Shown in pieces: positions 34,779 to 36,598 of a DNA stretch of 47,129 nucleotides. The notes below the pieces were generated by a model, which was given only the letters and a program-made list of their open reading frames with translations, made no database searches and was not told the DNA's origin. Position numbers and translations under genes: made by a program. This DNA comes from an uncultured Clostridia bacterium (GTDB lineage: Bacteria; Bacillota; Clostridia; Oscillospirales; Ruminococcaceae). The stretch is from positions 1 to 47,129 of the forward strand of contig CAMVGH010000007.1 of NCBI GenBank assembly GCA_947166945.1. The letters run 5' to 3'. The stretch's first letter is position 1. The number at the start of each line of letters is the position of its first letter.

Positions 34779-35435
34779 TTATTCCATACTGCCCGAAACT
34801 ATTTTATATATTTTTCCCGGTTCGTCACATATATAGACCGCGCCGTTATCTCTTAATTCATCTTCTTTTCTGAATCCCCACAGTACCCCTGCCGAAACAA
34901 GGCCGGCATTCTTCGCTGTCTGCATATCAACTCCGCTGTCTCCGACATACAGGATCTCATTTTTCGGGGCGCCAAGTTCGAGGACAGCCTTGTTTACGAT
35001 CTGTGGATCCGGTTTATGAGGAACTCCCGGGACACTTCCGTAAACCGAAGATATCTTCTCACCGAAATACCGTCGTATCAGTTCTCCGGCAAATATATGA
35101 TCCTTATTTGTGATGACAGCCGTAGATATACCTTTGTCATACAACTTCCCGATAAGTTCCGGAATTCCCTCATACGGTCTTGTCATATCCTCGCTGTGCA
35201 CACCGTAATACTCCGCGAACAACGAGTGTGTTTTCTCACGCAGCGCTTCATCGCTGCCTTCGGGAAGTATCCGTTCTATCAGTTTTGGTATCCCGTTTCC
35301 GACGAAATATTTGTAACGTTCAACAGGATAAGGCTCAAAGCCCTGCTTCACAAGCGCGTAATTCCCTGCTGCCGCAAGATCGTCGATCGTATTCAGCAAG
35401 GTACCGTCAAGGTCAAAAAATACATATCTGAACAT
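34779..35435 (-). CDS. HAD hydrolase, phosphoglycolate-phosphatase-like
   Basis: A 218-residue haloacid dehalogenase superfamily phosphatase, subfamily IA. The nucleophile motif DLDGTLLNT lies at residues 8-16. VITNKD carries motif II, KPDPQIVNKA the motif III lysine, and YVGDSGVDMQTAKNAG the motif IV acids. The helical cap lies between residues 16 and 80. GGAGG precedes the ATG. Similar proteins are annotated Gph, but many act on other small phosphates, so the substrate stays open. Its upstream region overlaps the divergent promoter at 35458-35486. Confidence 0.88.
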   Translation of the reverse strand: MFRYVFFDLDGTLLNTIDDLAAAGNYALVKQGFEPYPVERYKYFVGNGIPKLIERILPEGSDEALREKTHSLFAEYYGVHSEDMTRPYEGIPELIGKLYDKGISTAVITNKDHIFAGELIRRYFGEKISSVYGSVPGVPHKPDPQIVNKAVLELGAPKNEILYVGDSGVDMQTAKNAGLVSAGVLWGFRKEDELRDNGAVYICDEPGKIYKIVSGSME

Positions 35436-35457: not shown

Positions 35458-35486
35458 TTGACTTTCTCCGCTCTGTGTAATATAAT
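35458..35486 (+). promoter_or_regulatory. Sigma-A promoter facing the cloverleaf element and the RlmA-type gene
   Basis: TTGACT (35458-35463), a 17-base spacer and TATAAT (35481-35486). Transcription would start near 35493, inside the first arm of the palindromic element, and continue toward the methyltransferase gene at 35780. Confidence 0.75.
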
Positions 35487-35487
35487 A

Positions 35488-35597
35488 AATGTGTCCTCAA
35501 TAACTGCCTTTTGGCAGTTATTGGCTGAAAATCTGCAAAACAGATTTTCAGATGTTGTTTAAATGCGCCTGCGGTGCATTTAAACAACGGACACATT
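35488..35597. repeat. Cloverleaf-like palindromic module 1
   Basis: An outer 9-bp stem AATGTGTCC / GGACACATT (35488-35496 and 35589-35597) encloses three tight hairpins. A: AATAACTGCC / GGCAGTTATT, TTTT loop (35499-35522). B: CTGAAAATCTG / CAGATTTTCAG (35525-35551). C: GTTGTTTAAATGC / GCATTTAAACAAC, extendable by GCC/GGT to a TGC loop (35554-35588). Arms are separated by 0-2 bases. No coding frame or T-tracts explain it. It could be a structured RNA, a DNA cruciform-prone element or a miniature mobile palindrome. Confidence 0.85.
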
Positions 35598-35602
35598 CCT
35601 TG

Positions 35603-35742
35603 ATGTCAAGCTCATTTCGTCCTTCGGACGAACAAAAGTGCAAGGAAAATCCTAAAATATATAAATTTTCCTTGCACTTTTGCAGCCAATAAATTGCTTC
35701 AAGCTGCGCTATGAAGCAATTTGTTGGCTGATGAGCAGACAT
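35603..35742. repeat. Cloverleaf-like palindromic module 2
   Basis: Only 5 bases after module 1. The outer stem is ATGTC-aa-GCTCAT (35603-35615) with ATGAGC-a-GACAT (35731-35742). It encloses D: TTCGTCC / GGACGAA (35616-35632); E: AAAAGTGCAAGGAAAAT with its perfect complement (35634-35650 and 35665-35681, 14-base AT-rich loop); and F: GCCAATAAATTGCTTCA with TGAAGCAATTTGTTGGC (35685-35701 and 35712-35728, one T-G pair). Same design as module 1 with different sequences. Confidence 0.83.
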
Positions 35743-35779
35743 TAATAAACTGAAAAGACTGATAACAGGAGCCTGATAT

Positions 35780-36598
35780 ATGAATAAATTCATCTGCCCG
35801 GTCTGCAAAGAACGGCTTATCAAAGAAGAACACAGCCTGAAATGCATAAATGGACACTGTTTTGATATTTCAAGAAAAGGAACCGTCAATCTACTGCGTT
35901 CAAATAAGGCAAATCACGGAGACGACAAGCGCATGGTAGCGGCAAGGAAGAAATTTCTCGACAAAGGATACTACGAACCGCTCCGCAAAGCTGTCCGCGA
36001 AATGACTGCGCGTTATGCCGGGGACGGCTGTACTGTTCTCGACTGCGGCTGCGGAGAATGCAGCTATACCGCCGATATAAGCAAACATCTGCGTTCATCC
36101 GGAATAAACGCAGATATTATCGGTATTGATGTTTCAAAGGAAGCCATTAACGCCGGCGCATCACGACATGCCGGCATATCTCTCGCTGCCGCAAGCGTGT
36201 TTGACATACCTCTTGCAGACAACAGCTGCGATATCGTACTTTCACTGTTTGCCCCGTTTTCGGGAGATGAATACCGCAGAGTGCTGCGGCAGGGCGGAGT
36301 GTATATAACTGCGTTCCCGCTTGAAAATCACCTTATCGAGCTGAAACGCGCGGTATATGATCAGCCTTATCTTAATACAGTCTCACCGCTGGGAGTTGAC
36401 GGATTTGAACTTGCGGACAGCGGGGAATGCCGGTTCAGCGTCCGGCTCAATTCCAATGAGGATATCATAGCTCTTTTTGAAATGACGCCGTACTGCTATA
36501 AAACCTCACAAAAGGACCGTGCAAAACTCGACGATCTCACTTCATTGACTGTTACCGCGGAATTCGGCACAGCCGTTTACCGCCTTCTCAGCGAATGA
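35780..36598 (+). CDS. 23S rRNA (guanine-N1)-methyltransferase, RlmA family
   Basis: A 272-residue SAM-dependent methyltransferase. An N-terminal zinc ribbon is formed by Cys6, Cys9, Cys22 and His26 (FICPVCKERL, CINGHCFDI), as in RlmA/TlrB. KKFLDKGYYEPL and the SAM loop VLDCGCGECSY (86-96) follow. E. coli RlmA methylates G745 and Gram-positive RlmA-II/TlrB methylates G748 in helix 35 of 23S rRNA. The Gram-positive site is more likely here. TlrB contributes to tylosin resistance in its host, so a link to macrolides is possible. AGGAG precedes the ATG. Its leader, if transcribed from 35458, contains both cloverleaf modules. Its 3' end overlaps the convergent GH25 gene by 11 bases. Confidence 0.88.
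   Translation: MNKFICPVCKERLIKEEHSLKCINGHCFDISRKGTVNLLRSNKANHGDDKRMVAARKKFLDKGYYEPLRKAVREMTARYAGDGCTVLDCGCGECSYTADISKHLRSSGINADIIGIDVSKEAINAGASRHAGISLAAASVFDIPLADNSCDIVLSLFAPFSGDEYRRVLRQGGVYITAFPLENHLIELKRAVYDQPYLNTVSPLGVDGFELADSGECRFSVRLNSNEDIIALFEMTPYCYKTSQKDRAKLDDLTSLTVTAEFGTAVYRLLSE

Follow-up and report, generated by a model that had tools for sequence, protein, structure and literature searches.

A probable MITE-like mobile element with two three-hairpin modules behind the promoter of an rlmA-like gene in a Ruminococcaceae genome

What are the two tandem three-hairpin modules that lie between a promoter and an rlmA-like gene in an uncultured Clostridia bacterium of the Ruminococcaceae (assembly GCA_947166945.1, contig CAMVGH010000007.1)? 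The whole stretch of 47,129 nucleotides, called the window in the following, was analysed. An initial annotation, made from the letters alone, had described a double cloverleaf-like structure and had explained its perfect stems by strong selection on structure or by recent spread as a mobile palindrome. The structure is real. The plus-strand fold of 35,470-35,760 reached -143.9 kcal/mol compared to -61.6 on average for shuffled sequences (sd 4.8; z -17.1), the minus strand gave z -16.2, and on either strand none of 200 shuffles was equally stable. No ORF of at least 80 aa is contained in the unit, in line with its description as non-coding; one minus-strand ORF (35,548-35,889) crosses part of it. 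Terminator T-tracts are absent after the hairpins by reading of the sequence. No Rfam family matched at gathering score in the window, in line with the initial annotation, which had recognised no RNA class. A chance or degenerate cluster of inverted repeats, considered in the initial annotation as well, is practically certain not to be the explanation: no supporting point was found for it, and the z-score of -17, the near-identical dispersed copies and the target duplications rule it out. We consider the unit to be very probably a non-autonomous, MITE-like transposable element. It is short and without a transposase gene, it has terminal inverted repeats, target duplications and dispersed copies, and sites without the element were found.

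The element comprises 254 bp (35,489-35,742, plus strand) with the ends ATGTGTCCTCA and TGAGCAGACAT. Its boundaries were set via copies with unrelated flanks. The start had been placed at 35,488, but this base is part of the target duplication and the true start is 35,489. By end comparison, the left terminal inverted repeat ATGTGTCCTCA (35,489-35,499, plus strand) and the right one, ATGTCTGCTCA in minus-strand reading (35,732-35,742), are imperfect repeats of 11 bp, identical at 9 of 11 positions. Other copies have the same terminal inverted repeats with few mismatches. According to the helix assignment on the plus strand, module 1 (35,489-35,596) is closed by a stem of 8 bp (35,489-35,496/35,589-35,596) and contains the hairpins A (12 bp, 35,497-35,524), B (11 bp, 35,525-35,551) and C (16 bp, 35,554-35,588). 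Module 2 (35,603-35,742) is closed by a bulged stem of 5+6 bp and contains the hairpins D (7 bp, 35,616-35,632), E (18 bp, 35,633-35,682) and F (22 bp, 35,683-35,730). Of the reported stem lengths of 7-17 bp the lower bound was confirmed, whereas the upper one has to be raised to 22 bp. The stems are nearly all perfect, with three G-T pairs in the hairpins and otherwise Watson-Crick pairs, and the TGC loop common to hairpins C and F was described correctly. Between the modules there are six bases (TCCTTG, 35,597-35,602, plus strand) instead of five; this spacer has the length of the target duplication. It is flanked by ...ACAT and ATGT..., which suggests, short of proof, an origin of the 254-bp unit from two neighbouring copies.

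A similarity search for further copies with target duplications had been proposed, and both were found. The 255-bp query matched 26 places in the own genome; 11 were full length at 98-100% identity, and five were fragments at contig ends. All further rows came from second pieces or palindrome self-matches at these 26 places. Among the 15 two-ended copies of the own genome that were compared, four full-length copies and two deletion derivatives were identical to their consensus. Thus, judged from the sequences, the spread of the element was apparently recent. Within the genus, 19 of 71 genomes, the own one included, gave a match; copy numbers from this search are lower bounds, as 10 candidates were scored per genome. 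Ruminococcus flavefaciens YRD2003 and SAb67 and many rumen MAGs were among the matches listed for the central 17-mer, and the listed matches in unrelated taxa were in the number expected by chance. The elements are a mobile family, apparently a recent one, of a rumen genus that degrades fibre. In the other genera of the family, with two candidates scored per genome, 8 of 297 genomes matched (own included), some of them weakly. Four distinct copies from three other genera (L295, L296, L302 and L307) fold as 3+3 hairpins.

In the window the element is enclosed by the 6-bp duplication TAATAA, identified by copy comparison at 35,483-35,488 and 35,743-35,748 (both plus strand). For all genomes, 87 distinct two-ended insertions were compiled (at most one mismatch per end, 40-330 bp between the ends). 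Perfect duplications were found for 70 of them, 67 with 6 bp and three with 7 bp; 17 were imperfect. At 4, 5, 8 or 9 bp no perfect duplication was found, at 3 bp there were 18 of 87. Some of the 87 insertions may be shared via descent or recombination: in genome G033, L075 and L078 have an identical left flank and different right flanks, which suggests recombination between copies. Together with the near-identical dispersed copies, the fixed ends and orthologous loci without an intact element, these duplications bear out the recent spread as a mobile palindrome.

The perfect duplications were TAATTA (27), TAAATA (17), TAATAA (14), TAAGTA (5) and seven single others. The orientation of the element was set from its two distinguishable ends, independently of the flanks. 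Read in its direction, 43 of the 70 perfect duplications were forward, 27 palindromic and none reversed. The target is therefore approximately TA-TAANTA (target-site class TATAATTA); wherever a perfect duplication of the Ruminococcus set is not a palindrome, it reads in the same direction with respect to the element. An imperfect duplication, TAATAA/TAATTA, surrounds one mutation-free copy. In a subset of 56 insertions, from which two chance pairs (L103 and a 206-bp one in L012) had been removed, a crude ORF rule placed four (L012, L017, L062 and L063) antisense to the genes on either side. These four keep the TAAnnn order as well, so gene direction alone is insufficient to explain the orientation. 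In the same subset the left-hand ORF ends at the junction in 10 cases (five at -3, five at +1), as would be the case with a target TAA that frequently serves as a stop codon. The TA in front of the duplication was present at 57 of 118 inserted TAATNA sites and at 171 of 732 background sites; the 118 include some right ends, as the two ends differ by two letters, and the orientation rests on the 87 insertions.

A related high-copy family occurs in G189, a genome of another genus (L296, L303-L312), with the left end GTGCGTACTCA and the right end TGAGCAGACAT. The left end was matched 45 times at up to two mismatches, and two distinct full-length copies that were folded showed 3+3 hairpins. The 30 exact left-flank rows comprised TAAATA (9), TATATA (9), TAATTA (7), TATTTA (2), TACATA, TACTTA and TATGTA (one each). 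The reversed form TANTTA thus accounts for 3 of 30, and the strict target orientation may be limited to the elements of Ruminococcus.

Do the duplicated bases come from the target or are they carried by the element? In genomes G060 and G057, copies with 100% identity have different perfect duplications. Furthermore, the type of duplication showed no relation to lineage among the 65 of the 87 insertions with a perfect 6-bp duplication, more than 100 bp and known genome (22 of 60 close pairs alike, compared to 18.5 on average under permutation; p 0.16). Thus, the duplicated bases seem to derive from the target, as with a staggered cut. The own genome provides counter-evidence: of its mutation-free copies, three of four at full length and both of the deletion derivatives are surrounded by TAAATA (5 of 6). 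Such lineage-like grouping would fit a tyrosine recombinase that moves the element as a circle, with a crossover region of 6-7 bp giving an apparent duplication. Tandem copies with a single common duplication (L064, L074, L112 and L115) have junctions with 11-bp arms around a 6-bp centre, the orientation to the target is fixed, and in some mismatched flanks either side is a valid target, all of which speak for such an enzyme. However, the identical elements with differing duplications and the lack of a relation between type and lineage over all genomes (p 0.16) are hard to reconcile with an overlap that is carried along and depends on homology. The flank preference beyond the duplication is also slight, with A at -7 in 44, T at -8 in 34 and A at +7 in 30 of the 56 insertions. 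We regard this mechanism as unlikely.

The MITE-like element of the window is located between the promoter and the start codon of a gene. A -35 box TTGACT (35,458-35,463, plus strand) is followed after 17 bp by the -10 box TATAAT (35,481-35,486), which is recognised from the sequence and from orthologous loci and overlaps the left target duplication. Two bases later the element begins, and behind it follow the ribosome site AGGAG and the start codon (ATG) of the rlmA-like rRNA methyltransferase gene (35,780-36,598, plus strand; Pfam Zn_ribbon_RlmA and methyltransferase domains). The divergent upstream neighbour encodes a HAD-family hydrolase (34,779-35,435, minus strand; Pfam HAD_2). This arrangement recurs: a perfect TATAAT was found at a distance of at most 7 bp from the left end in 43 of the 87 insertions and from the right end in one. 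At a spacer of 17 bp, 21 of these 43 have a -35 match of at least 4/6 to TTGACA, and any other spacer from 8 to 26 gave at most three. For the promoter-class insertions of the 56-insertion subset, the right-hand neighbour was in sense orientation in 21 of 25. The oriented TA-TAANTA target accounts for this position, as it brings many insertions 2-3 bp past the -10 box with the left end adjoining.

Good -35 boxes were present at 31 of 59 inserted and 70 of 165 uninserted intergenic TATAATNA sites (p 0.22), and at 23 of 217 uninserted sites in long ORFs; this comparison omits 14 loci of other taxa, taken as chance matches to the 17-mer pattern (about 30 were expected by estimate). The motif and survival in intergenic DNA are enough to explain the association with promoters. 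Recognition of open promoters beyond their sequence is therefore not claimed. The element often lies directly after the promoter box and then probably becomes the start of the message of the gene. The promoter would stay intact after insertion, transcription would start at or near the left edge of the element, and the folded element would form the 5' leader of the mRNA with the gene undisrupted. By its target rule, such an element would act as a natural 5'-leader inserter at promoters that spares the promoter itself.

The protein of the rlmA-like gene had a match in 26 other genomes, and in 13 of these the DNA upstream of the orthologue was surveyed. The exact 11-bp left end was absent in all 13, and in 12 a TTGACA/TATAAT pair with 17 bp spacing and at most one mismatch was located within 420 bp upstream; in L246 it sits 176 bp before the start codon. 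The closest orthologous loci, L235 and L236, have most of the promoter sequence in common with the window. At L237 (G030:C222) a short hairpin, ATGTGTACTCAAT...ATTGAGATGTATCAT, directly follows the orthologous -10 box. It is apparently a decayed mini-element at the same insertion place; hence, 12 of the 13 orthologous loci look truly empty.

The position behind promoters raises the question whether the hairpins are conserved as RNA. Between subfamilies with about 75-80% identity the hairpins are kept; sequence changes affect the stems of B, C and F and a part of that of D, and hairpins A and E are largely preserved in sequence. Of 51 full-length elements, 42 showed all six hairpins, eight showed five and one showed four. 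Several stems covary strongly across subfamilies. In a selected sense RNA, G-U (G-T) pairs are expected to exceed A-C pairs among the non-Watson-Crick pairs of the stems. No clear excess of this kind was found: 18 G-T and 31 A-C were counted in 111 distinct hairpins, among 1562 Watson-Crick pairs, and 75 and 67 in the alignment of the 51 elements (19 and 29 in 15 representatives); the elements are related by descent and the counts not independent. Owing to these mismatches without G-T excess, the palindromes look upheld at the DNA level and not through a selected sense RNA. Covariation without wobble excess is the expectation under palindrome repair at this level. Perfect stems can be created and repaired by template switching during replication, as has been documented (PMC8794818). 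Alternatively, the stems could be kept because folded DNA is needed for mobility. Compensatory change in several stems is thus strong, but mismatches without wobble bias give no pointer to a sense RNA with a function. The element would probably be classed as a new structured RNA by a covariation pipeline; it is a case in which strong covariation should not be taken as a sign of RNA function.

A functional structured RNA, acting as a 5' leader regulator and conserved for its RNA fold with the copies as incidental, would nevertheless account for the very stable plus-strand fold, the covarying stems, the recurrence of the plan in other genera and the many copies directly downstream of promoters in sense orientation. 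It does not agree with the transcribed strand, where no clear wobble excess was found in any of the three counts, nor with the 44 of 87 insertions that have no TATAAT as close as 7 bp to the left end. Four of 56 insertions are antisense to both neighbours by the crude ORF rule, and the orthologues of the host gene manage without an intact element. We therefore judge this explanation to be very unlikely. A structured RNA at one locus, as considered at first, has no support either.

If DNA is the level at which the palindromes matter, a folded single strand could drive the transposition, as in IS200/IS605 or integron attC. The hairpins and the oriented target would be explained in this way, and DNA-level palindromy and the 3+3 hairpin plan in copies of several genera are in agreement with it. 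True 6-bp target duplications are, however, not known as a feature of IS200/IS605, and here 67 of 87 insertions show them perfectly. Copies also occur on both strands of single large contigs. Furthermore, mini forms of 44, 51 and 53 bp are located between duplications (TAATTA or TAAATA) in L294 and L112, the latter two sizes in tandem with one common duplication. They consist of little beyond the ends plus one hairpin; most hairpins are thus dispensable for presence at these sites. A transposition driven by the folded strand appears rather unlikely to us.

For the MITE-like element, a transposase acting in trans would cut the target with a stagger of 6-7 bp and insert the element in one orientation. 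The hairpins would be kept perfect at the DNA level by template switching in replication, by folded DNA aiding mobility, or by both. The 17 imperfect duplications among 87 are counter-evidence to this model, and a one-direction target is unusual for a simple transposase dimer. An autonomous partner with exact ends was not found in the own genome or in G060. With pairing by eye, none was found for ends plus duplication at up to two mismatches in G060, YRD2003 and SAb67, none among the matches listed at up to three mismatches in three genomes of other genera, and none with the variant left end GTGCGTACTCA in G189. Unpaired ends in the own genome and G060 were rejected as partner ends; they are chance matches, remnants or mini forms. 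A search of 260 records for paired ends 0.4-6 kb apart gave four rows, i.e. two pairs seen on both strands. Both are neighbouring MITEs around ordinary genes, and neither is a composite. The transposase family searches covered rve and DDE_Tnp_1. No ends resembling those of the element were detected at 13 loci of these two families; rve had no match in YRD2003 and DDE_Tnp_1 none in G060 and YRD2003, and matches to rve or DDE_Tnp_1 occur in some other element-bearing genomes. In phage and plasmid collections no similar DNA was found, and the central 21-mer is absent from viral contigs. The 50 viral-contig stretches chosen by end patterns contained no autonomous partner. One of them, L345 (IMG/VR contig 3300010282_000241), has a two-ended copy of 231 bp with the duplication TAATTA.

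The oriented target and the missing enzyme allow a directed search for an unusual transposase. Tentatively, we suggest the possibility of an unrecognised recombination system that reads the -10 box (TATAANTA) one way and uses the folded double cloverleaf or a DNA cruciform as substrate. The elements might then be a promoter-homing family that settles between -10 box and ribosome site and forms gene leaders in Ruminococcus and related genera.

Several known systems resemble the element. REP/BIME/REPIN sequences with RAYT transposases are likewise palindromes dispersed between genes and moved in trans. In contrast, the present units have 254 bp and perfect 6-bp target duplications, and RAYT-type elements (REP/REPIN) are not known to have such duplications. 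The target duplication of RUP is TA. BOX and RUP of Streptococcus pneumoniae are comparable in their tight fold, paired terminal repeats, target duplication and presumed transcription, as far as described in a section of PMC3049150. BOX has a modular structure, boxA-boxB-boxC (A-B-C), and its likeness to our element was judged by description. The same section reports an overrepresentation of BOX and RUP between convergent genes (PMC3049150), whereas nearly half of the insertions studied here are at a TATAAT box. The element behaves like MITEs such as Correia, Nezha and MITEAba12, which, in the part of the source concerned, are short, non-coding and mostly intergenic, with terminal inverted repeats, target duplications, many copies and strong folding (PMC10969869). 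Unlike these, the element had no partner transposase in the searches, its target has a single reading direction among the Ruminococcus elements, and its body consists of two three-hairpin modules with several stems differing between subfamilies. A Correia element just downstream of the mtrCDE promoter in Neisseria alters the transcription of the operon (PMC10969869, in part) and is a similar case of a MITE inserted immediately downstream of a promoter. It is one described case in that part of the source; here the target preference is repeated and oriented. No description of this repeat or of any Ruminococcus MITE was found among the matches listed from the open-access full-text literature. Owing to the oriented TATAANTA target and the double-cloverleaf plan, which also occurs in other genera, the element is a MITE variant rather than a routine member.

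Two minor observations concern the genomes. In SAb67 a second, unrelated dispersed repeat is located at five places (L265-L269) near the 17-mer TAAATAATGTGAGCGCA; 88-196 bp are common with the L265 copy at 87-95% identity, with internal CACTAATCACTA-like repeats. The repeated 17-mer of SAb67 belongs to this different repeat and was rejected as evidence for copies of the element. In G000 the contigs C39, C17, C21, C130 and C33 end inside the element; thus, the repeat fragments draft assemblies of the genus.
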